DNA of 35,666 bases from Phycisphaerae bacterium (GTDB taxonomy: Bacteria; Planctomycetota; Phycisphaerae; UBA1845). Made by a program: the position numbers and the translations under genes. Location: contig JAJDDX010000189.1 in assembly GCA_029260055.1 (NCBI GenBank), positions 1 through 35,666 on the forward strand, read 5' to 3'. A model generated the notes under the pieces. The model was not told the DNA's origin, made no database searches, and saw only the letters and a list, made by a program, of their open reading frames with translations. Below are positions 2,131-21,816 of this stretch, piece by piece; within the stretch, counting starts at the first letter, position 1; the number at the start of each line of letters is the position of its first letter.

Positions 2131-5100
2131 TTACGGACAAGGCGTCGGACAGCCGGTCGCCGAGTACGGCTGCTGCTGGAACGCCGCGACACCCTGATTG
2201 ATGTCGTTGAAGTTGATCTCCCCGTTCGGGATACACGGATCCAAGTTCGCAGCCTCGAACGTCACCAGCGTGAAATCGCCCTGGAACGCCTGAACGATCA
2301 GGTTGATGTCCACGAAGTTGACCAAGCCGCTGTTGTCCACATCACCCCAGGCCCAAGTCGCCGCGGACGATGTGGCCGAGCTCGCGCCGCCGGCCAGCTC
2401 GACGCTGGCGGTATACGTCGACTCGGGGATGATCTCCTCGCCGCGCACGTGGACGGTCGCCCACGTAGCCGGCGTCAGGTAGACCGGCGTATCGGTCAGG
2501 TACCCGTCGGCATCGGCGTACTTATCGAGGCACGTGTGATCCGGCGACGTGATGCGGATCGCCACCGTATCGCTGCATGCTTCCGGCACGACGGCGATAC
2601 TCTTCGGCGATTCGTCGGTCGCTTGCGGCGTCGCGGCGACGTGCGTCACGAAACCGGTTCCGGGATCACAGGCGTCAGCCGTGCAGTCGCTGCCGTCGTC
2701 GATGGCTTCGATCGCACCGTCGGCCGGGTTGCAGCACTCCGTGCCCGCATCGAAGTTGTCGGTGTGGCTCACGCTGCCGTCGGGATTGCAGGCGTCGTCC
2801 GTGCACTCGTTGCCGTCCGCGATCTGCGTGACCGCACCGGTGTCCGAAGCACAACACTGCGTGGCCGGATCGTAGTTGTCGGTATGACCGACCGTGCCGT
2901 CCGGGTTGCAGGTGTCGTTGGTACACGCATCACCGTCGTCGATCGGCGTCAAGCCGCCCGCGACCGGATCACAGCACTGGCCACCCGGCGTCGTGTCGGT
3001 GTTGATGCAGGTGCCGAGTGCGCAACTGTCCGCCGTGCAGGCGTTCGTGTCGTCGCACGCCGCCACGGTCACGATCGAGAGGAATGCGTCGGCACTTACC
3101 GTCGTGCCGAACACGTTGGTGATCTCGACGGAGTAGGCCGCGACATCCGCCGCGCCGGCGCCGACGATGCTGTAGCTCGACGAGACGGCTCCGGGGATGG
3201 AGACCGCGTCCTTGAACCACTGATAGTCGAACGGAGGCGTACCGCCGACCGACACGCTGAAGTTCGCCGTCTCACCGTCGCACACCGTTTGATCCTGCGG
3301 ATCAGCCGTCACGAACGGCGGCGAATCGACCGGCATGCACTCGATCGCTTCGATTCGAAGCGCGTCGAGGCCTGCCTCGTTGATACTCTGCGTGCCGGAA
3401 TCGTTGGCGGTGAAGCGGAACATCATGTTCGTGCCCAGCGTCACGCCGGCGGCATCCAAGTCCGCTTGCGTAATCTCGTGCGATCGCCACGCGAGACCGC
3501 CGTCAGTATCATGCCTGGCGATCTCGCTCCAAGGCCCCACGGCGCCGTTGCTACTGATCTCGACCAACAGGCGGTCCTGTCCGTCCTCGTTCGTGAGCCG
3601 GAGGAAGTAGTCGTAGCTGATCCTGAGCCCGCCGTCGGAAAGGTCGAAGATCGACGACAGGAGCAGGACGGCACCGTTGTCCACGTCGGTGTTGCCCACC
3701 ACATTCTCCGTCAAATAACACTGTCCGCTGCCATCTGAGTCCGAGGTCGGATCATACTGCCAGCCGGGATCGTTGACGGGTACGCCACGCTGCCACCACC
3801 CGTTGGTTGCGCCGGCGTTCTGCTCGGTCCACCCTGGAGCGGACTCGAAGTCGAAGGCTGCCACCTCGATGGTGCCAGCGCCGGCAAACGCCGTGAAGGC
3901 GGTCGTCGGAGCATCGGCAGGATCGGACACGCTCCCGCCACCCTGAGCGTTGGCGCTGAAGTAGTATGAAACCGCCGAGCCGCAAGGCGCTCCCGGCAGG
4001 GTCGCTTCATACTGGTTCGGAGCAACTTCGTTCATCGGCTCGGTCGTGTACGCGCCGGCACCGATTCGGTAGCTCACCGTACCCGAGCCGGGCACCGGAT
4101 CGCCCACAAGGGCGACGGCGTTGACGGCGATCACCGTCGGCTGATCGGGCGTGATGAACTCGGGGCGTCCGGTCGGATACTCGAACATGAAGGCCGCCAG
4201 CGGCGGGCAATCCATGTTGTGAGCGCCGAAGCCCGTGCAAATCTGATTGTAATGAGGCGTTCCGTTGTCGATCGTCCCATCGTCGTCATCGAGCACCAGG
4301 AAGTCGATGGTGATCTGCGGCGTGATCGTGTTGCCGCTGTGCATCGGGATCGAGTTCACGGCGAGGTAGGAGAGAACCTCCAGGTAGTCACTGGGGTTCG
4401 TGACGACCAACTCGTTGCGCGTGTCCCATACACATCCGGAGAGCAACTGACCACACGTATGAATGGTTCCGGAGCACGGGTATTGCATCGTGTTGTCGGC
4501 GTTCCGAAGCGGCGTGTCGCAGTCCGAGACATCCGTGCCGTAGAAACCGTATCCGAGCCCCGGATCGTCCTGCATCAGGACGGAGATGACATCGCCCATA
4601 CCCTCGCCGTACTGGCCCTGGCCGCTGCCGCCGGCTTCGATGAGATGGTGACCATACTCGTGGAAGATGACGCTGGACCACGCCGTGTTCGGCGCTCCGC
4701 CGCCACGTGCGCAGAAGTTGATGGATCGCTCTCCGGGGGAATACCAGGCGTTCTGCGGGCAATACCCGTCCGTCCGGTTCACGGACACGGGGAACTGCGG
4801 ACGGTTCGCCACTTCCGGATAGGTCGGATGGTTGGCGACGACCCAGTCTCGCACCAGGTTGGCGTTGTAGTACCCGTTGACCTCGGCCAGCGTATGCTCG
4901 GTGTTCGGCACGTTGTGCGTGAAGTTCGCCGGGCCGGGAGGCGTCACGGTCTCGGCGAAACTCGACTCGGCGCCCAGATAGTTGGTCACCACGAACCAGA
5001 GCCCCGAAAGCGTCGAGCGGACCGTCACGTCCGTCGAGCCAGCATTCGGTATCACGAAACTGCCGTTGCTGTCGGTGTGGGCATCATTCCCGCCGTCGAT

Positions 5101-5919
5101 GGTCACGCGGGCGTAGGGCATCGGAACGGGGAACGCAAAGCCGCACTGTTCCGCGCCGACACCGGTCGTCGCCGCCCCGGTCACGGCACCGTTCACGTCA
5201 ACGTGCACGGTAAGCATCACCTTATGCAGAATCTCACCCGTAACCGCATCAGCGACGAAGAGCCACTCATCCGGATGGTCCTGAACCGACGCGATGAACT
5301 CGACCGCCAGCTTTGGCGCGGCCAACACGTCAGCCGTGCCGGCGAAAACGACCTGCCTGGGCTCGCTGAAATCCGTAATCGTCGGCTCATCCTCGAGCGC
5401 CGCGTCGAACGCGCGCTCGGCGTCGATATCGGCGGCAACCGGAAGGACCAGGGCGCTGACATCACGCAGCGTGGACTTGGCCATCACAGCCGGGTAGCCC
5501 GCCTCGTTGCGCACGAGCACGCGGAACTCGCTCTCGAACACCGGAAGGTCGCCCACGAACTGCGAGAAGTAGACCAGCGTGAACTTGTACTGCCCCGTGG
5601 CCTTGTCATACCCCAGTTGCATCGTTCGGCGCGTCGCGTCGAAGTAGGCTTGGGGCTCCAAATCTTCCGGAGCCACGCCCCAGACGTGCGCCTCGCCCAT
5701 GCGAACGCGCTCAGCCGACTCGATCGCCGAACGCCCCGTCGCGATGGCACGCCCGTAGACCGAGCGCAACTGCCCGTTCTCCACGTGTGCGCGGAGGCCG
5801 GGATAACGCTCGAGCATCTGCCGCGCGCCGGCTGACAACTCGCTGTTGTCCGCCGCCATGCCCGGCGTAGCTACCACCAATAAACAAACGATAAGAAGTA
5901 TGCCCGGTAGGTGCTTCAC
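2131..5919 (-). CDS. secreted M36-like zinc metalloprotease with Ig-like, Cys-rich and dockerin modules
   Basis: Predicted 1262 residues. I chose the GTG at 5919-5917 because GGGAGG lies six bases upstream (5926-5931) and a good signal peptide follows (VKHLPGILLIVCLLVVATPGMAA). Residues about 85-240 look like an FTP/PepSY-type inhibitory propeptide. The catalytic region carries HEYGHH (H420, E421, H424) and GEGMGD (E439), the two zinc-ligand motifs of gluzincins, and GEGMGD closely resembles GEGWSD of M36 fungalysins. A jelly-roll-like domain follows around 685-860, then an Ig-like domain (about 870-960), four Cys-rich 'DDG..CT.D.C..DG...HTDN' repeats, and a C-terminal dockerin-like pair beginning WGDVDNSGLVNFVDIN. 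It probably digests proteins or glycoproteins outside the cell. The gene stands alone, with its own terminator. Confidence 0.9.
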   Translation of the reverse strand: MKHLPGILLIVCLLVVATPGMAADNSELSAGARQMLERYPGLRAHVENGQLRSVYGRAIATGRSAIESAERVRMGEAHVWGVAPEDLEPQAYFDATRRTMQLGYDKATGQYKFTLVYFSQFVGDLPVFESEFRVLVRNEAGYPAVMAKSTLRDVSALVLPVAADIDAERAFDAALEDEPTITDFSEPRQVVFAGTADVLAAPKLAVEFIASVQDHPDEWLFVADAVTGEILHKVMLTVHVDVNGAVTGAATTGVGAEQCGFAFPVPMPYARVTIDGGNDAHTDSNGSFVIPNAGSTDVTVRSTLSGLWFVVTNYLGAESSFAETVTPPGPANFTHNVPNTEHTLAEVNGYYNANLVRDWVVANHPTYPEVANRPQFPVSVNRTDGYCPQNAWYSPGERSINFCARGGGAPNTAWSSVIFHEYGHHLIEAGGSGQGQYGEGMGDVISVLMQDDPGLGYGFYGTDVSDCDTPLRNADNTMQYPCSGTIHTCGQLLSGCVWDTRNELVVTNPSDYLEVLSYLAVNSIPMHSGNTITPQITIDFLVLDDDDGTIDNGTPHYNQICTGFGAHNMDCPPLAAFMFEYPTGRPEFITPDQPTVIAVNAVALVGDPVPGSGTVSYRIGAGAYTTEPMNEVAPNQYEATLPGAPCGSAVSYYFSANAQGGGSVSDPADAPTTAFTAFAGAGTIEVAAFDFESAPGWTEQNAGATNGWWQRGVPVNDPGWQYDPTSDSDGSGQCYLTENVVGNTDVDNGAVLLLSSIFDLSDGGLRISYDYFLRLTNEDGQDRLLVEISSNGAVGPWSEIARHDTDGGLAWRSHEITQADLDAAGVTLGTNMMFRFTANDSGTQSINEAGLDALRIEAIECMPVDSPPFVTADPQDQTVCDGETANFSVSVGGTPPFDYQWFKDAVSIPGAVSSSYSIVGAGAADVAAYSVEITNVFGTTVSADAFLSIVTVAACDDTNACTADSCALGTCINTDTTPGGQCCDPVAGGLTPIDDGDACTNDTCNPDGTVGHTDNYDPATQCCASDTGAVTQIADGNECTDDACNPDGSVSHTDNFDAGTECCNPADGAIEAIDDGSDCTADACDPGTGFVTHVAATPQATDESPKSIAVVPEACSDTVAIRITSPDHTCLDKYADADGYLTDTPVYLTPATWATVHVRGEEIIPESTYTASVELAGGASSATSSAATWAWGDVDNSGLVNFVDINLIVQAFQGDFTLVTFEAANLDPCIPNGEINFNDINQGVAAFQQQPYSATGCPTPCP
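2630..3062 (-). repeat. four Cys-rich repeats coded in the metalloprotease gene
   Basis: The encoded protein repeats a unit of roughly 40 residues: Asp-Asp/Ala-Asp-Gly, then CT.D.C..DG, then a HTDN or HTD-like strand, then a CC pair. Two central copies are almost identical (CTNDTCNPDG versus CTDDACNPDG); the first and last are more diverged. The same style occurs in secreted proteins of myxobacteria and planctomycetes. Repeat boundaries are approximate. Confidence 0.8.
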
Positions 5920-6182
5920 TTTCGGCCTCCCGCAACTAAGACCAGGTTTAAGATTCCCAGGGACCACCCTAGGTTACTTATAACGAAAACAGGAGCCGAA
6001 TTAAAGGACCTAGATCAGGACGCTCGACGAATCCGATCAAGCCCTTATCGGCTCCCTCGGATCAATAGGCATGCCCCGAGAACCTTTGCCATGTAATGGC
6101 ACCGGCATAAGGCGGAACGTCCGAAAATCCGCGACAAGTCGCAGATGAGCGGAATTCTGACAGCCTGACCGTGCGGATAGGC

Positions 6183-7670
6183 TCATTCGAAGGAGTACAT
6201 GTTCCGTTTCGCGGGGTCGACGAGGCCGGCGACGTTGTATCGCTCTGCGGCACGTGCCAGATCGTTCTGGAAAACCCGAACCTCGCTGGGTGCGGCCTCG
6301 CCGGCCGCCAAACCCACGGCCGCGTCGTGAATTGACTCGACGAACGCCCGAAACTCCGGGTCATGGCTCAGCAGAAAGCCGTCATCGGGACGCCGCAGAC
6401 CCCGCCGGTTCCGGTGCTCGCTGAACGTCGCGCCGAGGAAGTACAACATGGCACAGCCGGTCATCAGATCGAAACGGCGGTTCGATCGGTAGCACGCGTG
6501 GATCATCAGATCCAGAAGGCCCGCTTCACGGTGGATGGCCTCGCCGTAGGCTCCGAGGCGCGCGGTACGCTCAGGACCGGGATCTGTCGATGCCAGGATC
6601 GCCGCGATCCGCTCGATGCCCGACAGCGCGTGAGCATTGCCCGCACTGTGCAGCGGGTCGATGAAGCACGCGGTGTGAGGCAACATCGCCCAATCATCTC
6701 CGGCCACACGTGAATAACGGCGCTGAAGCCGGTCTGTCGAAACCAGCGGAGTCACCGGCTCGGCCTCCGCGAATTGCGCGGCGATGGATGGGTATCGCGC
6801 GATGAGGTCCGCCCACTCGTCGGCCGGCAGCAGCGAGGCGTCCCGTGGATACCGATCACAATCGAGGACGAGACCCGCGCTCGTGACTCCGTTGTCGAAA
6901 CGAAGGACCCACATCCAGCCGCCGTCAATGATGTGATGCAAGGCTGCGTCATCGCAAGGGAACGGATGAGCGTCGATTCGACCTCCACGCTCGGTGTAGA
7001 CTTGGTGCCACGGCTTGACGCCACGGAAGTGCGCGAACACCGAGCGGCTGTTCGTCTTGATGGCAGACACGTCGTTCGCGATCCCGAGCGCCCGCGCGAG
7101 GGCGCCACCGCCTCCCGACGCATCGACCACAAAGGACGCCTTCAGTTCGACAGTCTGCCCTCTCCGGATCCCGCCGAGTCGCCATGGCCCAGCCTGTTCG
7201 ATCGCCGTAAGTTCCGTGCGATCCAGAAACTCGATTCCCGCCTCCCGGACCTCGCCGGCGAGAAAGGCATCGAAGTCGGCACGAAGCCAGTGCGTGTCGG
7301 CATGCTCAGTGTCCGGATTGGCGGCGACGAGAAGTTCGGTTTGGTGTTCCGGGCTCGTGCGATAGACCTCGCCCTCAGTGTGATGGAAGTAGCTGAAACC
7401 GCGCTTGCAGCCGCAAGTAAGCGCAGGATACGCCCTCTTCCACGAACCGTAATTACAGAGCGGCAAGAGGCGAGGAAGATCGTAGCGCTGAGCCAGGTCC
7501 GCGAGAACGAGGTTGGCGAGCGGCGTGGACGATTCACCGATGGCGAAACGCGGATGCGCCCCGCGTTCGATCACGATCGGGCGCATCCCGACGCGCTGCA
7601 TCAGGAGTGCTGTGAGGCTCCCGCCGAATCCGCCGCCGATGATGGCTACATCGTACACAGTGTCTGACAT
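6183..7670 (-). CDS. flavin-dependent halogenase-like FAD oxidoreductase
   Basis: Predicted 495 residues, the usual size for FADH2-dependent halogenases. Features in order: a Rossmann FAD loop GGGFGG (residues 12-17), GESSTP near 45-50, a conserved Lys in CKRGFSYF (K89) at the place of the lysine that carries or guides hypohalous acid in known halogenases, VVDASGGGG (181-189), GWMWVLRF (251-258) where classical enzymes have GWxWxIP, and FIDPLHSAGNAHAL (336-349). This sets it in the tryptophan-halogenase/geranylgeranyl-reductase superfamily; because the IP part is changed, it could be a non-halogenating reductase or monooxygenase. It is the third gene of an operon: its ATG comes two bases after the radical SAM stop codon, which implies translational coupling. 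Substrate unknown. Confidence 0.85.
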   Translation of the reverse strand: MSDTVYDVAIIGGGFGGSLTALLMQRVGMRPIVIERGAHPRFAIGESSTPLANLVLADLAQRYDLPRLLPLCNYGSWKRAYPALTCGCKRGFSYFHHTEGEVYRTSPEHQTELLVAANPDTEHADTHWLRADFDAFLAGEVREAGIEFLDRTELTAIEQAGPWRLGGIRRGQTVELKASFVVDASGGGGALARALGIANDVSAIKTNSRSVFAHFRGVKPWHQVYTERGGRIDAHPFPCDDAALHHIIDGGWMWVLRFDNGVTSAGLVLDCDRYPRDASLLPADEWADLIARYPSIAAQFAEAEPVTPLVSTDRLQRRYSRVAGDDWAMLPHTACFIDPLHSAGNAHALSGIERIAAILASTDPGPERTARLGAYGEAIHREAGLLDLMIHACYRSNRRFDLMTGCAMLYFLGATFSEHRNRRGLRRPDDGFLLSHDPEFRAFVESIHDAAVGLAAGEAAPSEVRVFQNDLARAAERYNVAGLVDPAKRNMYSFE

Positions 7671-7672
7671 CG

Positions 7673-8626
7673 CTACCCATCACAGACACAGCTCACCGCG
7701 CTGTCGACTTGCTGTGTCAAGTTCATTCCGGTCAAGCGTTGAACACGCGCCAACGAGCAGCGCGAACACGTCGCAAGCTGCTGGATATCCCAGAGATCGG
7801 AGAAGACGCGGCCGCCGCCAAGCGATAGGCCGTGTTCGACCACGGTTTCGAGCGACTGAAGCGTCGGCGGTGAGAAGAGCCCTTCGGACGCCAGCGCCTC
7901 CATAGCGCCATTGCCCGCCCGCGTCGGGATGACCACGCAGCACTCGACGCCAATCGAAAAGGCATATTCGATCGAACGCGTCGCCCACGTGACGCCCTGC
8001 GACTCACCTTGGAACGGCGTCCGAAGAAGGATGAACGCCCGGACGCCGATTCCGTGGTCGACAAGGAACGTGGTCGCTCGCTCGAAGTCGGCCAGGGCCA
8101 TGCGTTTGTTCAGCCGTGGAAGAACCTCTGGGTCGACCGTCTCGAGTCCCATGGCCACTTCAAGCCGCGGTCTCAACCGCTCGCTGAACTCGACACAGCG
8201 CCGATTGATCAGATTGGGGTGGCTCTCGACAATGACGGTCTCAAAACTCGAAAGCAGGTCGGCTACCTGCGGCAGTTCCTCCCGCGGGACGGCCAGGCCG
8301 TCGAAGAAGCTCCCGGCGTTATAGAGCTTGATGTGCCTGGCGGGCGCTACACGCGGAAGGGCCCACCGCACCTGCTCCGCGACGGCGCCGGTCGGCGTGC
8401 GCTGCAAGGTCGTGTTCTTCCAGAGATCACACATCAAGCAGCGGAACGGGCACTCCTTGTTCGTGATCAGGACCGTCGCCACATCCTCAACGGACCCGTC
8501 GGGCATGAACTCGGGCTCGACGAGGCAGGCGTAGGGCCGGAGCGGATCGACCACGTTCCGCGAGCCGCGCCGCGCGAGCACCCATGCATCATCGATGGCC
8601 GGACCGTCAGGAGGCGAAGGCGGCAT
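7673..8626 (-). CDS. radical SAM enzyme (RaSEA/TIGR01210-like)
   Basis: Predicted 317 residues from the ATG at 8626-8624; an earlier in-frame start at 8671 lies deep inside the upstream gene. The [4Fe-4S] motif CPFRCLMC (C59, C63, C66) follows the strand ATVLITNKE, and the sequence LYNAGSFFD around residue 100, with a later ESHPNLI, recalls the SGSFLD and IES strands of the archaeosine enzyme RaSEA and relatives. GLETVDPEVLPRLNKRM is a typical S-adenosylmethionine-barrel stretch. A C-terminal TCSRCS and a final SCVCDG add four cysteines that might bind a second cluster. Its start overlaps the end of the ligase gene by 20 bases, and the halogenase-like gene begins two bases after its stop. The radical chemistry and substrate are unknown. 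Confidence 0.88.
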   Translation of the reverse strand: MPPSPPDGPAIDDAWVLARRGSRNVVDPLRPYACLVEPEFMPDGSVEDVATVLITNKECPFRCLMCDLWKNTTLQRTPTGAVAEQVRWALPRVAPARHIKLYNAGSFFDGLAVPREELPQVADLLSSFETVIVESHPNLINRRCVEFSERLRPRLEVAMGLETVDPEVLPRLNKRMALADFERATTFLVDHGIGVRAFILLRTPFQGESQGVTWATRSIEYAFSIGVECCVVIPTRAGNGAMEALASEGLFSPPTLQSLETVVEHGLSLGGGRVFSDLWDIQQLATCSRCSLARVQRLTGMNLTQQVDSAVSCVCDG

Positions 8627-9941
8627 TGAATTCCCGCCGGTACGCCCACGGCGATTCGGGGAAGCGATCATCGAAGCCTCGCGCCTCGATCGCGCCGCGC
8701 TGGAAGCGGCGCTTCTCGAACACGGGCATGGTAAGACCGGTGATAGCCTCCACGCCGCGCGACACGATATCGCCCTTCAGGGCGTACAATCGATCATGGT
8801 GCCAATCCGTCAGCTCGATGAAGGGAATTCCCTCGGCCACGCGAACGACGTTCGGCAGCATGTACGGGCTGAAGCCGGTAAACCCGAAAGCGGACACCGG
8901 CGCAAACGTGCGCGTGCAGCCCCGGCTAAGCCCACCGGAATAAGTGAGCGAATGCTTGATCGCCTCGACCCCCCATCCCTCGTGATAGAGAAGTGGGTTG
9001 TTCAGCACGCTGCGGATCGTCAGCTCCGGATTCTCCTCGATGGGGTAATCCTTGAGGTTCTCGTCGCCGCCGTCGCCGTCCACCAGGTAGGTCCATTCCG
9101 GATAGCGCTCACGAATCCCCTGACACATCGCGTAGGTCATCGCGCCCGCCTGAATATCCAGCGGCTTGTAGTCCTCGGTGACGCGCACGGCTTGCTTGTA
9201 GTCGATCGCGTCGGCTGACACCTCGACCGGCTCATGGAACAGTTGGAGGTCGACCGCTTCGAGGAAGCGCCTGGCTTGATCGAGGTCCGCCCCGCCGCCA
9301 TCCACGCTGAGCGTGAACGCCTTGAGCCGCGCCGGGCTCTCGCCGCGGCTCACGAGAGCGTGATAGGTCAACAGGAATACAGCCCCGCTGTCGATCCCGC
9401 CCGAGAAGCTTACGCCGATCGGCGCATCCTTCGGGACGCGGTCGAGCCAACGGTTGATCTCGTCGGCTAGCACGCCCATATACGCGCGCCCTATTTTGTA
9501 GAGATCGGCGGGCAAGGCGTTGCGCTGCGGGGTCAGGAAACGTGTGTAGGTCGGGCTCGGATCGGGACAACCGACCAGGGCGACCTCGGTGATATAGTGA
9601 GCGGGTACCATCCGCGTATAGCTCGGGTGAAACTGATCCGCCAACCCTTGCTCGGTAAGCCACTGGCGGATCGTGTCAATTCGGTGCGCCGCGACCAGTG
9701 CCGGGCCCTCCGCCCGCTTCGCCACGAAGTAGCGCAACGGAACGCCGAGCGACCGAGCCATGCGAACGATGTGGTCCCGCTTGGCCATCAAGGCGAATTG
9801 CCCGTCGATGGCGTCGACATCCTCGGACACACCGGCCAAAACGCGTGCCCTCGCGTCTTCGACGGTCATGTTGAAGATCGTGTTACGATCGGGTTCGGTC
9901 AGATCAACCACTTCGCGCAGAGGCTGTTGCTGGATCATCAT
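8607..9941 (-). CDS. asparagine-synthetase-like ATP-dependent amide ligase lacking the glutaminase Cys
   Basis: Predicted 444 residues from ATG 9941 (an adjacent ATG at 9938 lies six bases from the GGGAG at 9945-9949 and is equally possible). The C-terminal half is a complete asparagine-synthetase domain: PP-loop SFSGGIDSG (residues 178-186), DGDGGDEN (288-295), and PYMLPNVVRVAEGIPF near 380. This domain activates a carboxylate as an acyl-adenylate and joins it to an amine. The N-terminal 150 residues keep only the later strands of a class II glutamine amidotransferase (IDGQFALMAKRDHIVRMARSLGVPLRYF) and there is no Cys at position 2, so ammonia from glutamine is unlikely. Beta-lactam synthetase-type cyclisation is the nearest known precedent. 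It is the first gene of the three-gene operon. Confidence 0.88.
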   Translation of the reverse strand: MMIQQQPLREVVDLTEPDRNTIFNMTVEDARARVLAGVSEDVDAIDGQFALMAKRDHIVRMARSLGVPLRYFVAKRAEGPALVAAHRIDTIRQWLTEQGLADQFHPSYTRMVPAHYITEVALVGCPDPSPTYTRFLTPQRNALPADLYKIGRAYMGVLADEINRWLDRVPKDAPIGVSFSGGIDSGAVFLLTYHALVSRGESPARLKAFTLSVDGGGADLDQARRFLEAVDLQLFHEPVEVSADAIDYKQAVRVTEDYKPLDIQAGAMTYAMCQGIRERYPEWTYLVDGDGGDENLKDYPIEENPELTIRSVLNNPLLYHEGWGVEAIKHSLTYSGGLSRGCTRTFAPVSAFGFTGFSPYMLPNVVRVAEGIPFIELTDWHHDRLYALKGDIVSRGVEAITGLTMPVFEKRRFQRGAIEARGFDDRFPESPWAYRREFNAAFAS

Positions 9942-10173: not shown

Positions 10174-11682
10174 ATGACGACGAAAGTGCAAACCGTAACC
10201 CTAGAAAGCCTAGAGCCCGCTTCGGTGTGGCGCTTCTTCGCCGGCATGTCGAACGTGCCGCGACCGTCGAAGAAAGAGGAACGCATTCGCAAGCACATCC
10301 TTGACGTGGCCAAAGAGCACGGCCTCGCCGCGCGGGAGGACCAGGTCGGCAACGTCATTGTCGATGTCCCCGCGACGAAGGGGCACGAGGGTGCGCCCAT
10401 CACCGTCCTGCAAGGCCACCTGGACATGGTCTGCGAGAAGAACAGCGGCACCACGCACGACTTCGACTCCGAACCCATCCACCTCGTCATCGACGAGGAC
10501 CCCAAAGGCGGCGAGATCATCGTCAGAGCGGACGGCACGACGCTCGGCGCCGACAATGGAATCGGCGTAGCCCTGGCGTTGGCGGCTGCCATCTCACCGG
10601 AAGTGACGCACGGCCCACTCGAACTGTTGTTCACGCTTGACGAAGAATCGGGCATGACGGGAGCCAAGGGCTTGACGCCGGAGAGCTTCAAAGGGCGGCG
10701 GCTGCTCAACCTCGATTCCGAAGAAGATGACGCGCTGTACATCGGGTGCGCCGGCGGGAGCGACATCAATCTCACTTGGCGATTCAAAGCCGTAGCGCCG
10801 TGCGAGAAGTGCGAGTGCTGCCGAGTCGTCATTTCCGGCCTGCGCGGCGGGCACTCCGGTTGCGATATTCACGAAGGGCGCGGCAGCGCGATCAAGCTCC
10901 TCACCAGAGCGCTGCGCCGTGTGGATCGCGGTGGGATGCAGATCGGCATGCTCTCGGGCGGCAGCATGAGAAACGCCATTCCGCGTGAGGCCGAGGCGAT
11001 CATCTGCGGACCGGCTGACACGCTCTTCGAGTTAGAAGAAGCGGCCAACCGCACCCGCAAGGAAGCGATCCGGGAATCCGGCGAAAACGACATCACGCTT
11101 CGCATCGAGCCCGCCGCCCACCTGATGCCAGAGCAGGTTCTGAGCACTGAAGACACGCAAAGGTTGATCGCCGCCTTGGCAAGCCTGCCACACGGCGTGC
11201 TCGGCATGCACCCCAAGGTGACGGAACTCGTGGAAACGTCCAACAACATCGCCACGTTGAAGACGGATCGCATCGCGGATGACGGCGTGATACAGATCGA
11301 TGTAGGCGCACTGGCGCGAAGCTCCTCGTCTTCACGTTTGCATGCGGTACTCACACAGATCACGGCCATCGGAAAACTCTCCGGCGCCTCGGTCAACACC
11401 GGCAACGAATATCCCGGCTGGGACCCGAACCCCGACTCGTCGACGCTGGCGACCTGCCGGCGACTCTACTCGAAACTCTTCGAGGCGGAACCGACGGTCA
11501 TGGCTATCCACGCGGGCCTCGAATGCGGACTGATCGGTGAGCGTGTCGGCGATATGGACATGATCTCGTTCGGGCCGCGCATCGAAGGCGCGCACAGCCC
11601 CGACGAGCGAGTTTACGTAGCTTCCGTGCTAAAGACCTGGGGATATCTCAAAGCAGTCCTGGCGGAACTCGCTCGAACCTAG
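10174..11682 (+). CDS. pepD: aminoacyl-histidine dipeptidase (M20 family)
   Basis: Predicted 502 residues, normal for PepD, which hydrolyses Xaa-His dipeptides such as carnosine and other short peptides in the cytosol with two bound zinc or cobalt ions. The metal-binding and catalytic residues are visible: GHLDMV (H82, and D84 as the general catalytic support), GADNG (D127), LDEESG (E157 as base and E158 as ligand) and NLDSEE (D181). The lid domain carries GGHSG near residue 230, and a C-terminal GAHSPDERV supplies the last His ligand. The start at ATG 10174 follows AGGGGAGAGAAGC. It diverges from the three-gene ligase operon, and the 232-base gap holds both promoters. I see no sign of regulation beyond that. 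Identification is confident. Confidence 0.94.
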   Translation: MTTKVQTVTLESLEPASVWRFFAGMSNVPRPSKKEERIRKHILDVAKEHGLAAREDQVGNVIVDVPATKGHEGAPITVLQGHLDMVCEKNSGTTHDFDSEPIHLVIDEDPKGGEIIVRADGTTLGADNGIGVALALAAAISPEVTHGPLELLFTLDEESGMTGAKGLTPESFKGRRLLNLDSEEDDALYIGCAGGSDINLTWRFKAVAPCEKCECCRVVISGLRGGHSGCDIHEGRGSAIKLLTRALRRVDRGGMQIGMLSGGSMRNAIPREAEAIICGPADTLFELEEAANRTRKEAIRESGENDITLRIEPAAHLMPEQVLSTEDTQRLIAALASLPHGVLGMHPKVTELVETSNNIATLKTDRIADDGVIQIDVGALARSSSSSRLHAVLTQITAIGKLSGASVNTGNEYPGWDPNPDSSTLATCRRLYSKLFEAEPTVMAIHAGLECGLIGERVGDMDMISFGPRIEGAHSPDERVYVASVLKTWGYLKAVLAELART

Positions 11683-11750
11683 CTCCCCGCCCCGCCACTT
11701 TTTGCCGTAGGCGACCTTCGGGCGGTTGCCGATGCGGCTGGAGGAACATC

Positions 11751-13061
11751 TTGGGAAGAATTCGTATCGGCACCGTGGCCATGGTGATCGCACTGGCTAC
11801 CTGCGCTCATGGGCAAGAAGCACCCCGCGCCTTCGTCAACGCGTCGCTCATACCAATCCAAGGCGATGAAATCGCAGACGGCACGATGGTCGTACTCGGG
11901 GGCAAGATCATTGCGGTCGGACCGAGCGTGAGCATCGCAATTCCCGAAGGCACCGAGGTCATCGACGTAGCCGGCAAGGTGCTCATGCCCGGCCTGATCT
12001 GCACCCACAATCACATCGGCGGCATCGGCGGCGCCGACTCCTCCGGGCCCATTCAACCCGACGTGCGCATCTACGATTCAATCAACATCCACGATTCGGG
12101 CTTTCGCCGGGCCGTCGCCGGTGGACTCACAACGCTCAACCTCATGCCCGGCTCGGGCCATCTCAACAGCGGCCAGACCGTCTACGTGAAGCTCCGCAAG
12201 GCGCGCACGATCGAGGACATGGCTATCCGCGACGACACAGGCTGGATCATGGGCGGGCTCAAGATGGCCAACGGCACCAATTCGCAACGAGCAGCCCCCT
12301 TCCCCGGCACGCGAGGCAAGTCCGCCGCGCTCGTGCGCGAGCGATTCGTCAAAGCCATCGAATATCGCGAGAAACTGGCCAAGGCCGCCGGCGACGCAGA
12401 GAAGACCCCGGCCCGCGACATCGGGCTCGAGGCACTCGTCGAGGTGCTTCAGCACAAGCGCATCGTACACCATCACACGCACCGCCACGACGACATCATG
12501 ACGGTCCTTCGGCTGGCCAAGGAGTTCGACTTCCGCGTCGTGCTACACCACGTCAGCGAGGGCTGGAAGGTGGCCGACGAGATCGCAGCCGCCGGCGTGC
12601 CCTGTTCGGCGATCGTAATCGACAGCCCCGGCGGGAAGCTGGAAGCCCGCGAGCTGTTCCTCGAAACGGGCGGCATCCTAGAGCGAGCCGGCGTGCTGAC
12701 GGCCTTCCACACCGACGACTGGATCACCGACTCCCGCGTCTTCTTGCGAAGTGCGGCGCTGGCTGTGCGTGCCGGTATGTCGCGGGAAGGCGGCTTGAAA
12801 GCTCTCACGCTCGCCGGCGCTGAGATGCTGGACCTCGACGACAGAATCGGATCGCTCGAAGTCGGAAAAGACGCGGACTTCATCATCCTCAGCGGCGATC
12901 CACTCAGCGTATACACCAAGGTACTCGAAACGTGGATCGAAGGCCGGCGTGTCTTTGATCGTAGCGATGCCAAGGACCGCCTCTACGCCGTCGGCGGCTA
13001 CGGAGCGGGACACAACCAAGTGCCCTACATGTGCTGCTTCGAACACGCGGAGACAAACTGA
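11751..13061 (+). CDS. secreted amidohydrolase, imidazolonepropionase-like, with intact metal site
   Basis: Predicted 436 residues. The start is TTG at 11751, with GGAGG at 11740-11744 and a six-base spacer; the first in-frame ATG would cut into the signal peptide (IGTVAMVIALATCAHG). The mature part is an amidohydrolase barrel: the HNH pair (H86, H88) in PGLICTHNH, HHHTHRHDD (about 240-248), LHHVSEGW (266-267) and FHTDDW (H320, D322), followed by the C-terminal beta-sandwich strand GSLEVGKDADFIIL. The set of ligands is complete, so it should hydrolyse an amide or lactam bond outside the cytoplasm; the substrate is unknown. Its stop codon overlaps the ATG of the next gene by one base (TGATG), so the two amidohydrolases are translationally coupled. 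Confidence 0.88.
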   Translation: MGRIRIGTVAMVIALATCAHGQEAPRAFVNASLIPIQGDEIADGTMVVLGGKIIAVGPSVSIAIPEGTEVIDVAGKVLMPGLICTHNHIGGIGGADSSGPIQPDVRIYDSINIHDSGFRRAVAGGLTTLNLMPGSGHLNSGQTVYVKLRKARTIEDMAIRDDTGWIMGGLKMANGTNSQRAAPFPGTRGKSAALVRERFVKAIEYREKLAKAAGDAEKTPARDIGLEALVEVLQHKRIVHHHTHRHDDIMTVLRLAKEFDFRVVLHHVSEGWKVADEIAAAGVPCSAIVIDSPGGKLEARELFLETGGILERAGVLTAFHTDDWITDSRVFLRSAALAVRAGMSREGGLKALTLAGAEMLDLDDRIGSLEVGKDADFIILSGDPLSVYTKVLETWIEGRRVFDRSDAKDRLYAVGGYGAGHNQVPYMCCFEHAETN

Positions 13062-14290
13062 TGAACACCCACTTCACCCGCATCGGTGCCATGGCGCTGC
13101 TTGCCGCGCTCACCTGGACATCGACTGCATCGGCCCAGATAGCGGTCAAAGGCAAGGTCGTCCACACCATGGCGGGCGAGCCCATCCGCAACGGTGTGGT
13201 CGTGATCGCCGATGGGAAGATTACCGCGGTTGGCCCGGCTGCGACGACGCCGATCCCCGACGGGATGCGCGTCCTCGAAGCCGAAGTAGTCACGCCCGGA
13301 TTGATCGACGCGCACAGCACCGTAGGACTCAGCGGCATTCTCAACTACGCCCACGACCAGGACCAGCTCGAGCGTTCAGCGCCCGTGCAGCCGGAGCTGC
13401 GCGCCATCGATGCGTACAACGCGCAAGAGGCGCTGGTGGATTGGGTCCGGAGCTTCGGCATCACGACGGTCCACACCGGCCACGCGCCGGGCGAGCTCAT
13501 CTCCGGCCAGACCATGATCGTCAAGACGTTCGGAAAGACGGTCGAGGACGCGGTCATCGTCGAAACCGCCACCGTCGCCGCCACGCTCAACTCGACGGCG
13601 CGGAAGACTGGCAAGGGCAAGTCACCCGGCACGCGCGGCAAGATGATGGCGATGCTCCGGCAGGAGTTCATCAAGGCCGGCGAGTACGTGAAGAAACGCG
13701 AAGCCGCCGAGGCGGACAAGAAGCCCGATCGCAATCTGAAACTCGACGTACTGAGTCGCGTGCTCGCACGCGAGCTGCCTCTGATGATCACCGTGAACCG
13801 TGCGCAGGATATCGCCAGCGCGCTGCGCCTGGCTCGTGAGTTCAACCTGAAGATCATCCTCGACTCGGCGGCTGAGAGCTATCTGCTGATCGACGAGATC
13901 AAGCAAGCCGGCGTGCCGGTGCTCGTACACCCGCCGATGATGCGCGCCTTCGGCGAACTCGAGAACATGACATTCGAGACGGCCGCCAAGCTCAAGAAGG
14001 CGGGCATTCCGGTCGCCTTACAGAGCGGATACGAGAGCTACGTGCCCAAGACGCGCGTGGTGCTCTTCGAAGCGGGCATCGCGGCCGCCAACGGCCTGTC
14101 GTTCGGTGAAGCCCTCGGCCTCATCACGATCGACGCAGCCGGTATCCTCGGCGTGGCTGATCGCGTCGGTTCGCTCGAAGTCGGCAAGGACGGTGATGTC
14201 GCCCTCTTCGACGGCGACCCCTTCGAGTACACCTCCCACTGCATCGGCGTAATCGGCGAAGGACAAATCGTCAGCGACATCAAACGCTAG
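13061..14290 (+). CDS. secreted amidohydrolase-like protein with degenerate metal site
   Basis: Predicted 409 residues with a signal peptide (IGAMALLAALTWTSTASAQ). It is a paralogue of the preceding protein: VVTPGLIDAHST at 77-87, the GKT-like SGQTMIVK near 155, and GSLEVGKDGDVALF near the end. However, the second His of HxH is Thr (H85-S-T87), the HHHTHRHDD segment becomes ITVNRAQDI, LHHVSEGW becomes LDSAAESY, and FHTDDW becomes LQSGYESY. At least four metal ligands are therefore missing, so hydrolytic activity in the usual way is unlikely. It may form a heteromer with, or present substrate to, the active partner, to which it is coupled by a one-base stop/start overlap. The pair ends at a structured intergenic repeat block. 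Confidence 0.87.
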   Translation: MNTHFTRIGAMALLAALTWTSTASAQIAVKGKVVHTMAGEPIRNGVVVIADGKITAVGPAATTPIPDGMRVLEAEVVTPGLIDAHSTVGLSGILNYAHDQDQLERSAPVQPELRAIDAYNAQEALVDWVRSFGITTVHTGHAPGELISGQTMIVKTFGKTVEDAVIVETATVAATLNSTARKTGKGKSPGTRGKMMAMLRQEFIKAGEYVKKREAAEADKKPDRNLKLDVLSRVLARELPLMITVNRAQDIASALRLAREFNLKIILDSAAESYLLIDEIKQAGVPVLVHPPMMRAFGELENMTFETAAKLKKAGIPVALQSGYESYVPKTRVVLFEAGIAAANGLSFGEALGLITIDAAGILGVADRVGSLEVGKDGDVALFDGDPFEYTSHCIGVIGEGQIVSDIKR

Positions 14291-16017: not shown

Positions 16018-17382
16018 CTACCCCAGATCAAACGCCATAATATGCTTGCGGTCACGGACGTAGAGCGTCTTGCCGACCAACGTCGGCGCGGCCCAGGCGT
16101 AGCGCTCAGCCACCGTACACTTCGAGATCACCTCGAGCCCTTCGGGTGACAACTTGGCCAGTGCCAACTGCCCGTCCTCGTCCAGGATGATCGCCTTGCC
16201 GTCGCCGTAGGAGAACGTCGATTTCGCGAAGCCCCGCTTGCGCCAGACAACCTTGCCGGTGTGAATATTCACCGCGCCGACAAACGCCGGGCCGAAGTCG
16301 CCGGTGGAGGCATAGACATAATCGCCGATGCGGATCGCGTTGCCGTGATGAATACGAATCTTGCGGCCGTACCAGACCTCCTCGGCCTTGGTCTTCCCGC
16401 CCTCCATCGTCAGCTTGATACCGTGGCTCCCGCCGCCGTACGCGGAGGAGCAAAAGAACATCCCGTCCCCGGACCAAAGCGGCGAACTCAGGTACGCACC
16501 GTCGAACTTCAACTCGGTCTGCCAGAGCACTTCGCCGTTACCGGGATTGACGCCGACGAGGTTATGTCGCGCGGCCAAGACGAGTTGCTCCTGTCCGCCG
16601 AACTCGATCAGGATCGGCGATGAGTGGGTCACGTCGAAACCCTTGTTCTTCCAAACGACCTTGCCGTCGGCTTGGTTGAACGCGACGAGCGTCTGCCGCT
16701 TCGCCTCAGCCTCACGGAATTCGTCGGTGAGCTGCTGACCCATCGCTTCTTCACCGGGGGCCGGTGCACCGACCGGCACGATGATCGTGTCTTTGTACGC
16801 AATGGCGCTGGCGCAGAAGCCTCGCCCGGGCACCGTGCCGCCTTCGTCCTTGGCCAGGTCGTGTTTCCAGAGCACTTCGCCCGTCCCCTTGTCGAAGGCG
16901 TGCAGCACCGCGTTGGCCCCGATGGAAAAGAGCCGATTGCCGGCGATCAACGGCGTCGACGACGGGCCGGGGCCGAACTGCGCCATGTTCGGCGTGAACG
17001 GCGAGACGTTCTTGTGTTCCCACCGCGTCTCGCCGGTCGCGGCATCGAGGGCAACGGTGAACTCGTTCTCCGTCTCGCCATCGCGATACATCGTGTACAG
17101 CGTGTCGCCGTCGACAAGGATGGTCGAGTAGCCATCGCCCAACTCACGATGCCAGAGTTTCTTGGGGCCCTCTTCGGGCCATGTCTCGGCAAGCCCGGTG
17201 GAGGACGAAAGAGAGTCGCGGTTCGGGCCGCCGAACTGGGGCCACTGTGGGGCTGACTTGACCGCCGCCGCCTTCGCCGACTGCGGGCTCGAACAGCCCG
17301 TCACCGACATCGTCGCCAGTGTCATCGCCACGGCCATGCACCCGGGCACAAGCAGCCGGCTCAGTTGATTCTCGCGTTTCAT
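16018..17382 (-). CDS. PQQ-like beta-propeller lipoprotein
   Basis: Predicted 454 residues from ATG 17382, with AAAGGCGAG just upstream. It has a signal peptide and lipobox (MSVTGC, C30), so it is probably anchored to a membrane. The opening WPQFGGPNRDSLSSSTGL is the hallmark of planctomycete PQQ-repeat proteins, followed by at least six blades with the pattern 'A.D..TGe..W...' (ALDAATGETRWEH, AFDKGTGEVLWKH, AFNQADGKVVWKN, GVNPGNGEVLWQT, AVNIHTGKVVWRK). The fold is an eight-bladed propeller that can scaffold protein complexes, as BamB does, or, if cofactor residues were kept, bind PQQ; dehydrogenase catalytic residues are not apparent. It is the last of the minus-strand genes before the convergent hairpin. 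Confidence 0.88.
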   Translation of the reverse strand: MKRENQLSRLLVPGCMAVAMTLATMSVTGCSSPQSAKAAAVKSAPQWPQFGGPNRDSLSSSTGLAETWPEEGPKKLWHRELGDGYSTILVDGDTLYTMYRDGETENEFTVALDAATGETRWEHKNVSPFTPNMAQFGPGPSSTPLIAGNRLFSIGANAVLHAFDKGTGEVLWKHDLAKDEGGTVPGRGFCASAIAYKDTIIVPVGAPAPGEEAMGQQLTDEFREAEAKRQTLVAFNQADGKVVWKNKGFDVTHSSPILIEFGGQEQLVLAARHNLVGVNPGNGEVLWQTELKFDGAYLSSPLWSGDGMFFCSSAYGGGSHGIKLTMEGGKTKAEEVWYGRKIRIHHGNAIRIGDYVYASTGDFGPAFVGAVNIHTGKVVWRKRGFAKSTFSYGDGKAIILDEDGQLALAKLSPEGLEVISKCTVAERYAWAAPTLVGKTLYVRDRKHIMAFDLG

Positions 17383-17498
17383 CGATTCTCGCCTTTCTTT
17401 CGAATAATACGTCATAGCCGGGTCTCGACCCTCCGCAGTCCCTCGTCCACGCGTCCCGAACGCTCGCAGCAGCGCCATCACGCGATGCTGGCAAAGCC

Positions 17499-17554
17499 GG
17501 GTGCCACTGGTGGCTTGCCACCAGTGCTGTAGCGCCGCCCCTTGTGGGCGGCGC
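17499..17554. repeat. two tandem hairpin repeats between PQQ genes
   Basis: The motif gggtgcc (17499-17505) leads into a perfect 9-bp stem (17505-17513 with 17518-17526, loop CTTG), directly followed by a second perfect 9-bp GC stem (17532-17540 with 17546-17554, loop CTTGT). The lead resembles that of the hairpin repeats at 14295-14621, while the stem sequences differ. They lie 27 bases after the stop codon of the upstream minus-strand PQQ gene and may terminate it. Confidence 0.72.
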
Positions 17555-17581
17555 CCGATGCTCCTAGACGTCCGGCACCGC

Positions 17582-18751
17582 TTAGTCTCCGCGTGCAGTC
17601 TTGGCGCCGAAGCAGTAAAGCATGCCATCGAGCGTACCGATCACCAACCGCCCACGCGCAACGGCCGGCGAAGCGGAAATCGCGGAGCCCGTTTCGAAAC
17701 GCCACGTCTCCTTCCCGTCTTCCAACCCAACGGCGTAGACGTTCCCATCGGCCGAGCCGATGAACACTCTCTTGCCCACAATCACCGGTGAGGAGTCGAT
17801 CCTCCCCTTCGATGCAAAGACCCACCGCTCCTTACCGCTATCCATATCGAGCGTGTGAAGCCGCTTGTCGCGTCCGCCCACGACGGCAAGCTTGTCAGTC
17901 ACGGCGGCCGACGACATAAACGGGAATTCCCTCTCGGCGTCCTCGAACACCCACAGCAGCTTGCCCCGCGCACGGTCGATCCCAAGCACCTTGCCGCCAT
18001 ACGTACCGACAATCGCGCGGGAGCCGCGGACCGCCGACGACGCCCCGGACACCGAACGCATACTGACCTTGGTCAGACTCTTGCCGTCAGCCAGGCGCAC
18101 GATGTGAAGGAACTCATCACAGCCGGCCGCCACCACGGTGCCGTCCGCAATCGCCGGCGTGCCGTGTACTCGTCCGCCCGTCTCGAACTTCCACAGAAGC
18201 TTGCCGTCGGTCGCGCCGAGGCAGTAGATGAGTCCGTCGTACGACCCAAGGACGAGTTTGCCGCCGTCGTGGTTTACCGATGAGATGATCTCGCCGCCGG
18301 TCTCGAAGGTCCATTTGCGCTTGCCGGTTCTCGCATCGACGGCATGCACGATGCCCTCGCTATCACCGAAATAGACAGCACCATCGATCACGGTCGGGGA
18401 TGACTGGATCAGGTCGGCTGCGGCGTACTTCCACTTCTTCTTGCCGCCTACAAGTTCTAGCGCGTAGAGATTGCCGTCCTCGCACCCGACATACACCGAG
18501 TCGCCGACAATCGCGGCGGTAGAAGAAATCGCTTCGGGCGCTTCGAACTTCCAAAGCACGTCCAAGCGATCGGGAAGCAGGCAGCGAGCCACGCCGGTCT
18601 GCCGCGAATCGCCGCGGAACATCGGCCAATCGGCGCCGGCAAGGTCATCCAAAGCGAGAGTCGGAGCCGCGAGCAAGACCGAGCCGACAAGCAGCACGAT
18701 CACTCGTATAGCCCATACGGGGCGGCGGATTCGTCGCGTCACTCTCTTCAA
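17582..18751 (-). CDS. PQQ-like beta-propeller protein, signal-peptide bearing
   Basis: Predicted 389 residues. The start is TTG at 18751, with GGAGG at 18761-18765 and a nine-base spacer; no in-frame ATG gives a complete signal peptide. An Arg-rich N-terminus precedes a hydrophobic stretch (VIVLLVGSVLLAAPTLALDD), so the product is exported. The mature protein starts with the typical DWPMFRGDSRQTG and has about seven blades, each repeating 'vyvGs.DG.lYal...tGk..W.f.tgg' very regularly, as in BamB-like and PQQ-repeat proteins. No dehydrogenase active-site residues are seen, so a structural or binding role is likely. It is separated from the downstream PQQ lipoprotein gene by 199 bases with two tandem hairpins. 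Confidence 0.87.
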   Translation of the reverse strand: MKRVTRRIRRPVWAIRVIVLLVGSVLLAAPTLALDDLAGADWPMFRGDSRQTGVARCLLPDRLDVLWKFEAPEAISSTAAIVGDSVYVGCEDGNLYALELVGGKKKWKYAAADLIQSSPTVIDGAVYFGDSEGIVHAVDARTGKRKWTFETGGEIISSVNHDGGKLVLGSYDGLIYCLGATDGKLLWKFETGGRVHGTPAIADGTVVAAGCDEFLHIVRLADGKSLTKVSMRSVSGASSAVRGSRAIVGTYGGKVLGIDRARGKLLWVFEDAEREFPFMSSAAVTDKLAVVGGRDKRLHTLDMDSGKERWVFASKGRIDSSPVIVGKRVFIGSADGNVYAVGLEDGKETWRFETGSAISASPAVARGRLVIGTLDGMLYCFGAKTARGD

Positions 18752-18873
18752 GACTCGTCGCCTCCGGGCGGCTGTGCGCCCCTCGTCTGCGTGCGCGTTC
18801 CCTCGGCGATCAGCTTACCATGCCCGCCCCGCGGCGCCGCTTTCCACGGCGCGCTAAAGCTTGTCCAAAATTG

Positions 18874-19290
18874 TCAGGCGGCGGGTTCCGTGAGTGCTCG
18901 CCGGATGGGGACGGGGATGGCGATCGACACGAACGAGCCCTCGCCCCATGCGCAGCAGACGGTCTTCATCGTACCCACGGCCAGGCGCCGCCCATCGCGA
19001 GTAAACTCGATCTCGTAGATGACGGACTTCTCGCCCACCTCGGTTACGCAAAGCCGGAGCATCACCTCATCCTCGAATCGGATCGACTCGAAATACTCGC
19101 AGTTGACGGAAACCCTGGGCCAGATGATGGTCCGCTCGCTCTCGCACGTCAGCACACTCATCTCACGCGACCGCCAGAACGCGTGCTCGCACTCCTCCAT
19201 GATCCGGAGGTAGTTCGAGAAGTGCAGCACGCCGGCAAGATCGACTTCGGCGAACTGCACGCGCCGCGCCATCGTGAATTCGACAGCCAT
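18874..19290 (-). CDS. hotdog-fold acyl-CoA thioesterase (4HBT/YbgC-like)
   Basis: Predicted 138 residues, the usual size of a single hotdog domain. The N-terminal motif RVQFAEVDLAGVLHFSNYLRIMEEC matches the 4-hydroxybenzoyl-CoA thioesterase pattern 'V...etD.aGvvy..nYl...E', with the catalytic Asp at residue 17. It should hydrolyse an acyl-CoA thioester in the cytosol; the acyl chain is not predictable from sequence. The start at ATG 19290 follows a weak AGGG seven bases upstream. It lies 51 bases downstream of the DUF6159-like membrane protein gene on the same strand and may share its transcript. Confidence 0.88.
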   Translation of the reverse strand: MAVEFTMARRVQFAEVDLAGVLHFSNYLRIMEECEHAFWRSREMSVLTCESERTIIWPRVSVNCEYFESIRFEDEVMLRLCVTEVGEKSVIYEIEFTRDGRRLAVGTMKTVCCAWGEGSFVSIAIPVPIRRALTEPAA

Positions 19291-19341
19291 ATCTTGACCC
19301 TGCGACTCCGACTCCGCTGGAAGGAGCGCGGTGGTAGCTAA

Positions 19342-20202: not shown

Positions 20203-20251
20203 GCGCTGACCTCCAAATCTCGCCGAATGGCGCTGCGTCGCCCCCTTGGAC

Positions 20252-21718: not shown

Positions 21719-21816
21719 GCTGAGAATCCCGACAATTTCGGTTACAACCGGCACATCATCCGCCTTGCCCAGCGGCGCCGCAAGCGAACGCCTTGGCAAT
21801 CCGCGCAAAGCCCCGG

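Follow-up and report, generated by a model that had tools for sequence, protein, structure and literature searches.

A stretch of 35,666 nucleotides from a Phycisphaerae bacterium (contig JAJDDX010000189.1 of assembly GCA_029260055.1; the whole stretch is called the window below) carries three closely spaced genes on the reverse strand: LIG, which encodes a ligase of the asparagine synthetase family; RSAM, which encodes a RaSEA-like radical SAM enzyme; and FLAV, which encodes a halogenase-like FAD enzyme. It is well supported that these three genes form one module. Their arrangement is beyond chance, since the order recurs in several phyla and strong matches mark the same 13 of 294 planctomycete genomes. 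The first-pass annotation of this DNA had read the trio as one functional unit, and that reading held, as the homologues do occur together in these genomes and across phyla. The enzymes appear to be variants of known families, while their combination and their partners appear to be undescribed. A search of the open-licence literature in PubMed Central found no description of the trio, in agreement with the earlier statement that it is not a recognised pathway.

LIG (8607..9941, 444 amino acids (aa), PF00733) starts at an ATG at 9941 or 9938, with the sequence GGGAG directly upstream. Read from the ATG at 8626, RSAM (7673..8626, 317 aa, TIGR01210) overlaps the end of LIG by 20 bases; its first in-frame ATG, at 8671, would give a protein of 332 aa and an overlap of 65 bases. 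The stop codon of RSAM (7675-7673) is followed by a gap of two bases (7672-7671) and then by the ATG of FLAV at 7670 (6183..7670, 495 aa, PF04820), which runs to its stop at 6183. The overlap of 20 bases and the spacing of two bases given in the first-pass annotation were thus confirmed when the coordinates were re-read.

Among the 294 planctomycete genomes, LIG was found in 13, and strong matches to RSAM (E < 1e-120) and FLAV (E < 1e-130) were found in exactly those 13, which is the co-occurrence that had been proposed as a check. Beyond them, RSAM has three weak matches (1e-17, 4e-13 and 6e-9), and FLAV, searched at a threshold of 1e-60, has two weaker ones (1e-72 and 3e-62). Genomes G216 and G087 have all three genes, but on different contigs, so this is co-inheritance and not just linkage.

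A scan of GTDB contigs gave at least 295 confirmed stretches, from which 80 LIG loci were taken. By record titles and taxonomy labels, LIG loci belong to Planctomycetota, Bacteroidota, Myxococcota, Rhodothermota, Fidelibacterota, Chlorobiota, Acidobacteriota and Verrucomicrobiota, and further loci are found in records labelled Deferribacterota and Calditrichota. RSAM directly follows LIG (same strand, gap of -120 to 300) in 56 of the 79 testable GTDB-contig loci and in 10 of 12 planctomycete loci; the 79 exclude one locus with fewer than 600 bases downstream, and a second LIG fragment of genome G386 (L238) was set aside. FLAV comes third in 18 of 67 GTDB-contig loci and in 4 of 12 planctomycete loci. 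A Bacteroidota-side sample of 335 genomes around Maribacter contains LIG in 21, with RSAM adjacent in 18 of these and FLAV next in 16, where RSAM and FLAV were read only within the 1.5 kb flanks of LIG. Pairwise identities of the three proteins rise and fall together (Spearman 0.59 for LIG/RSAM at 36 loci, 0.50 for LIG/FLAV at 16 and 0.59 for RSAM/FLAV at 19), and none of 500 permutations reaches these values, from which the kinship of the organisms has not been removed.

LIG matches PF00733 at 52 bits (gathering score 21) over residues 168-307, and it scores 41.7 bits against TIGR01536, the glutamine-hydrolysing asparagine synthase, where the equivalog cut-off is 267. In an AlphaFold model made from 58 sequences (pLDDT 88), residues 4-444 match beta-lactam synthetase (1mc1; Z 25.2, 378 residues, rmsd 4.2) and residues 7-444 match AsnB (1ct9; Z 24.7, 369 residues, rmsd 3.6). 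LIG is 14-18% identical to the AsnB and beta-lactam synthetase chains compared. The model thus predicts an AsnB/beta-lactam synthetase fold with a complete synthetase domain. The alignments begin at target residue 40 in 1mc1 and residue 39 in 1ct9, and in the model the glutaminase domain lacks about its first 38 residues and keeps the remainder. The nucleophilic cysteine of AsnB sits within those residues, and beta-lactam synthetase retains a full, inactive glutaminase domain. LIG therefore resembles both enzymes in its predicted whole-length fold, its PP-loop and its DGDGGDE loop, but unlike AsnB it starts at about AsnB residue 39, with the glutaminase cysteine and its strand gone. Because this cysteine is missing, LIG would be unable to draw its amine from glutamine by a glutaminase of its own. 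The term “glutaminase-less” used in the first-pass annotation is right in effect, but the structural alignment limits the loss to these first residues. At loci L024-L028 and L031, the longest open frame from the first start codon spans 442-445 aa, which leaves no room there for an extended N-terminus.

Alignments A5 to A8 (58, 54, 23 and 21 rows) cover part of the loci, translations with internal stops having been excluded. In the 58 rows of LIG, the PP-loop SGGIDS (residues 180-185; 9387..9404, reverse strand) has S180, G182, D184 and S185 invariant, while position 181 varies between G (45 rows) and A (13 rows). The counted residues of the DGDGGDE loop and K410 are identical across all rows; the conserved lysine near the C-terminus, placed by eye, presumably stands at the position of the AsnB lysine. 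The aligned LIG proteins of 57 loci, which come from several phyla, are 59-69% identical to that of the window. In the LIG tree, the window and 10 other rows form one group (SH-aLRT 98), five of them planctomycete and five myxococcotal.

The best named family for the RSAM of the window is TIGR01210/RaSEA (92 bits, E 3e-26). This is far under the cut-off of 212, so RSAM is a distant relative and not a RaSEA. TIGR01210 is matched at E 0.001 or better by all 54 aligned RSAM proteins, and the second named family by members matched is MnmL/YtqA (29 of 54). Against the general radical SAM model PF04055, the window protein scores 21.6 bits, below the cut-off of 29.5. However, the motif CPFRCLMC (C59, C63 and C66; 8429..8452, reverse strand) has its three CX3CX2C cysteines invariant in all 54 rows, which places the protein in the radical SAM superfamily. 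The name “radical SAM enzyme” given in the first-pass annotation stands, and the relationship to RaSEA, which was not part of it, is added here. Sequence searches of the PDB with RSAM gave no meaningful match. The C-terminus (window 7676-7762) carries extra cysteine pairs, CxxC and CxC, in the window and in several relatives but in none of L024-L027 and L031; they are possibly a second, dispensable metal site.

FLAV matches PF04820 at 46 bits (gathering score 21). Its best solved relatives by sequence are the tetracycline 7-halogenase (7v0b, E 5.6e-48) and PltM (6bza, E 1.5e-40), and a profile from five FLAV proteins matches PltM at E 3e-64. Lys89 (7404..7406, reverse strand), a lysine in 23 of 23 FLAV proteins, aligns with the lysine of CGIKLGFSF in PltM, which we take to be the catalytic lysine of that enzyme. 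The signature of flavin-dependent halogenases is WxWxIP. At its place FLAV has WMWVLRF (6897..6917, reverse strand), and among the 23 aligned proteins position 252 is always W, position 254 is W in 20 and Y in 3, position 256 is L in 20 and I in 3, and position 257 is R in 19, H in 3 and Q in 1; the proline that ends WxWxIP is found in none of the 23 rows. FLAV is thus like PltM and CtcP (the tetracycline 7-halogenase) in its FAD motif, its aligned lysine and its nearest solved sequences, but unlike them it has W(M/L/I)(W/Y)x(L/I)(R/H/Q)F in place of the signature, and no gene for an aromatic polyketide or phloroglucinol was noticed beside it. The nearest NCBIfam names are QhpG, CmlS and GoxB, all far below cut-off (QhpG 68.9 bits against 240, GoxB 55.2 against 400; LodB reaches 47.3 against 400), and the QhpG, CmlS and GoxB models match all 23 members. 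FLAV may catalyse either halogenation or hydroxylation.

The assignments to PF00733, the radical SAM superfamily and PF04820-type flavoenzymes support the earlier description of the trio as three enzymes of the tailoring type. A similar combination is found in the ammosamide cluster, where excerpts of PMC12715798 describe a putative asparagine synthetase, Amm20, and a flavin-dependent halogenase, Amm3. That cluster differs from the trio in being a PEARL pathway that acts on a precursor peptide, and its Amm10 is partly similar to radical SAM enzymes but lacks the cysteine motif, according to the same excerpts.

The most widespread family near LIG, apart from the trio itself, comprises proteins with FG-GAP and UnbV segments. 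Such proteins lie in the examined flank at 28 of the 37 non-planctomycete loci and at 10 of the 54 planctomycete ones, counts in which many flanks end at contig ends and from which locus L091 (phylum unstated) is excluded. One type, of about 1200 aa, consists of TPR and FG-GAP repeats, a UnbV segment and a C-terminal domain with a KGSCPF motif, and is found in the examined LIG flank in 23 of 93 sources. This C-terminal domain, of about 450 aa (motif KGSCPFLYTWNG), is seen on TPR/FG-GAP/UnbV proteins at L112:15930-17288, L061:6942-8297, L155:878-2146 and in relatives. It is present in all 13 planctomycete LIG genomes against 96 of 294 overall (Fisher 3e-7, ignoring kinship) and in all 21 Bacteroidota-side LIG genomes against 34 of 335 overall (Fisher 8e-25, ignoring kinship). 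A further set of 43 LIG genomes was hand-picked from the 80 named loci to include most of the non-planctomycete loci and some planctomycetes; the domain is found in 41 of the 43, two of the 43 being also among the 335. The N-termini of this type of about 1200 aa resemble signal or lipoprotein sequences by eye, and the machinery is apparently extracytoplasmic. Neither this link nor the one to hydrazine-synthase-like genes described below was in the first-pass annotation.

Two copies of the KGSCPF domain gave no match in Pfam. The domain model has a pLDDT of 81 and a best Foldseek match at E 6e-4 with a TM-score of 0.16; VIA-align returned PAPP-A, GH29 and CBM32/discoidin-like chains (Z 7.9-9.8 over 110-144 residues), which can be a common arrangement. 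The domain falls into two subtypes, W-type (W37/W83) and G/R-type (mostly G37/R83); for genome G296, one of two domain matches was taken for the sequence comparison. The FG-GAP protein was considered as a modified substrate of the trio, as W37/W83/Q161/P192 at first seemed linked to LIG (46 of 53 sequences against 2 of 40). This mark was rejected when the same residues were found in 13 of 13 Bacteroidota-side genomes without LIG. Within the W-type, 77 columns are at least 90% conserved in the LIG group and none of them falls below 60% in the non-LIG group, so that no column separates the LIG group (67 sequences, with one gene counted twice) from the 15 sequences of genomes without LIG, and modification of the FG-GAP protein is unsupported.

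A membrane multiheme cytochrome c of about 960 aa with C-terminal TPRs (L150:1140-4025, L154:15270-18152 and L036:5636-8527) adjoins the FG-GAP/UnbV and KGSCPF proteins in planctomycetes and adjoins LIG-RSAM in a myxococcotal metagenome-assembled genome (MAG). ABC substrate-binding proteins recur in 14 LIG loci, and flanking family number 58 occurs at 16 loci, all planctomycete.

Fifteen LIG-RSAM loci, mostly from Bacteroidota and none planctomycete, contain alpha-like and beta-gamma-like hydrazine-synthase genes. At five loci (L053, L080, L083, L097 and L098) these are in the LIG-RSAM cluster. Model matches exist for L053 and L080 only, among which HZS_alpha (PF18582) was found, and L083, L097 and L098 were assigned by BLAST family. 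The beta-gamma match in L080 scores 245 bits, far below the cut-off of 1250 for true hydrazine synthase. The ten other loci (L273-L282) were chosen for already showing propeller or substrate-binding genes on continuing contigs, and in all ten the DNA just upstream holds both genes; the beta-gamma match of L282 is part of a gene that continues in L040. Records that combine hydrazine-synthase-like genes with LIG-RSAM come from Flavobacteriaceae, Prolixibacteraceae, Chlorobiota and Fidelibacterota and often include Rid-like and substrate-binding proteins. In Maribacter and Lutibacter, the order is a gene for 566-581 aa, alpha-like, beta-gamma-like, propeller, Rid, two substrate-binding proteins, KGSCPF protein, short FG-GAP protein, LIG and RSAM. 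Some LIG clusters contain MauG/cytochrome-c-peroxidase-like as well as hydrazine-synthase-like heme proteins. No hydrazine-synthase-like genes were found in the window or the examined planctomycete flanks (no genome-wide search was made), nor within 10 kb on each side of L081 and L082.

Clusters of this kind outside anammox bacteria were described by Hagglund et al. in 2025 (PMC12758564). Excerpts of that paper report that the non-anammox clusters include FG-GAP/CRTAC1 proteins, that one clade has two substrate-binding proteins and that key residues are not conserved; the words “asparagine” and “radical SAM” do not occur in its main text. Most of the 15 LIG-RSAM loci likewise have FG-GAP/UnbV and substrate-binding proteins, a likeness in gene content to some clades of that paper. 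Unlike those clusters, the window and the examined planctomycete flanks have no such genes.

The trio may be read, tentatively and at somewhat less than an even chance, as a pathway of its own for making or tailoring a small compound that contains nitrogen, be it a cofactor, a ligand or a substrate, for use with the TPR/FG-GAP/UnbV machinery. The products listed in the first-pass annotation (a small molecule, a peptide or a nucleoside) are thus narrowed down only slightly. We infer the substrates, the order of steps, the product and its use as follows. LIG would adenylate a carboxylate with ATP at its PP-loop and join to it an amine from a source other than glutamine hydrolysed by LIG itself. 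The 5'-deoxyadenosyl radical of RSAM would then take a hydrogen next to the new amide nitrogen and cleave the C-N bond, so that a primary amide or amidine remains; RaSEA works in this manner, by hydrogen abstraction and C-N cleavage, once ArcS has attached lysine. Together, LIG and RSAM would amidate a carboxylate without a glutaminase. FLAV, where present, would halogenate or hydroxylate an aromatic ring of the compound.

Among known systems, the one closest to such a joining enzyme working with a radical enzyme of the RaSEA type is ArcS/RaSEA (excerpts of PMC11298593). In these excerpts, ArcS of three archaea attaches lysine, with ammonium, Asn and Gln not serving as nitrogen source; RaSEA then converts the resulting preQ0-Lys, and ArcS from Thermococcus binds RaSEA in a complex. 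The new pair is like this one in that the best family of RSAM is TIGR01210 and its partner would couple a group without a glutaminase. It is unlike it in that RSAM is bacterial and scores 92 bits against 212, and in that its partner is an AsnB-type ligase whereas that of RaSEA is the TGT-like ArcS. Also unlike the archaeosine system, no preQ0 genes were noticed near the trio, in flanks where no search aimed at them was made. A bolder form of the proposal, which we consider speculative and quite improbable, is that LIG and RSAM are a glutaminase-free bacterial amidation pair, in which an amino acid such as lysine is attached and cleaved at the nitrogen, and that they supply an essential cofactor or substrate to an extracytoplasmic redox machinery, as yet undescribed, of FG-GAP/UnbV and hydrazine-synthase-like proteins common to Planctomycetota, Bacteroidota, Myxococcota and others.

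Several observations weigh against the proposed pathway. FLAV was found in only 12 of the 43 hand-picked LIG genomes and is missing from the cultured Flavobacteriaceae Maribacter arenosus, M. luteus and Lutibacter citreus, so that LIG-RSAM is the core of the module and the FLAV step would not be universal. The lysine relay would be an analogy only, because of the distance of RSAM from the RaSEA cut-off, and the enzyme ArcS from Methanocaldococcus jannaschii is stated to accept ammonium, Asn or Gln (excerpts of PMC11298593). A single family, f31, supplies eleven of the 13 planctomycete genomes with LIG, and the planctomycete counts are therefore not independent; two members of this family, G024 and G266, lack LIG and RSAM, and G266 carries the FLAV match at 1e-72. 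As for the FG-GAP/UnbV association, its Fisher values disregard kinship, and the domain profile was built from LIG-linked sequences and so favours near relatives. Two of the 43 LIG genomes, both MAGs, have no FG-GAP/UnbV protein, and 83 of the 294 and 13 of the 335 genomes have one without LIG. The genome of the window and four near relatives by LIG hold a divergent form of the protein in the copies examined, those from the window's own genome being of the G/R-type.

Alternatively, the trio could serve the post-translational maturation of a large exported protein, either the KGSCPF FG-GAP/UnbV protein or a heme protein of the cluster. The flavoenzymes QhpG, GoxB and LodB, which hydroxylate tryptophan in proteins, mature protein-derived quinone cofactors, and the matches of every FLAV protein to the QhpG, CmlS and GoxB models would fit such a role, as would the presence of the KGSCPF protein in nearly all LIG genomes, its place in the LIG flank in 23 of 93 sources and the MauG-like and hydrazine-synthase-like heme proteins of some clusters. 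However, FLAV is nearer to PltM and CtcP, which act on free substrates, none of the 77 conserved W-type columns separates LIG from non-LIG sequences, and the G/R-type copies in the window's genome do not favour it either; maturation is, on balance, unlikely. The same nearness to PltM and CtcP, together with the retained halogenase lysine, speaks for a free-standing natural-product pathway, which would make a halogenated or hydroxylated amide, a metallophore or a signal and be tied to FG-GAP proteins through shared ecology alone. All three families are typical tailoring enzymes, and 44 of 54 planctomycete loci have no FG-GAP/UnbV protein in the examined flank, whereas 28 of 37 non-planctomycete loci do. 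Among the recurrent flanking families inspected, not every one of which is annotated, there was no carrier protein or synthase, even if the ABC substrate-binding proteins do recur, and the 59-69% identity of LIG over 57 loci is high for a secondary-metabolite enzyme. This explanation is possible but rather doubtful.

The nearest families of RSAM, RaSEA and then MnmL/YtqA, both modify tRNA, and PP-loop ATPases are common in tRNA modification, so the trio was also considered as a bacterial version of the archaeosine pathway in which LIG would replace ArcS. LIG, however, aligns with AsnB and beta-lactam synthetase along its whole length, whereas its match to tRNA thiolases such as NcsA is limited to about residues 139-421, and neither a halogenase-like partner nor the FG-GAP/UnbV tie fits RNA or nucleoside modification. 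No gene for tRNA-guanine transglycosylase or 7-deazaguanine was noticed among the flanking families inspected, for which no targeted search was made, and modification of this kind is very improbable. That the three enzymes are unrelated and adjoin by chance is hardly credible: the genes are unlinked in some planctomycetes, and three genomes have a weak relative of RSAM, and two a weak relative of FLAV, without the rest of the trio, but this explanation is contradicted by the counts, with strong matches confined to the same 13 genomes and an order kept in several phyla.

Links of other kinds were also sought around the trio. The first-pass annotation had seen no precursor-peptide gene, and the flanks of homologous loci bear this out. 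In the region from -2.5 to +5.5 kb of LIG, 4063 small open reading frames (ORFs; 20-120 aa) from 93 sources (92 loci and the window) were compared, ORFs overlapping the trio or conserved larger ORFs by at least 40% being excluded. They gave three clusters of 3-4 Bacteroidota loci, the largest with four, and none wider, so that no recurrent precursor of a ribosomally synthesised and post-translationally modified peptide was found near LIG. A role as a defence system was rejected: PADLOC at E up to 0.1 gave no match for RSAM or FLAV and only marginal ones of LIG to DndC (E 0.06-0.07, residues 172-213 only). There was no sign of spread by plasmids: a search of 72,556 plasmid records at E 1e-10 found no match.

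The genes around the trio in the window do not look like part of the unit. On the opposite strand lie genes for an M20 peptidase and two amidohydrolases (10174-14290). Downstream of FLAV and on the same strand, 2131-5967 encodes a large protein that shows, by eye, an HEYGHH motif like those of zinc peptidases and has matches to Ig and Dicty_CTDC. Further away, 16018-21808 holds a run of PQQ-type beta-propeller genes, broken by a DUF6159 gene at 19342-20262.

The trio is a testable three-gene unit that pairs an AsnB-type ligase lacking the glutaminase cysteine with a bacterial relative of RaSEA. LIG and RSAM are also two further members of the hydrazine-synthase-like clusters, and knockout of these two genes in a cultured flavobacterium (Maribacter or Lutibacter) could help to reveal what such clusters do outside anammox bacteria.

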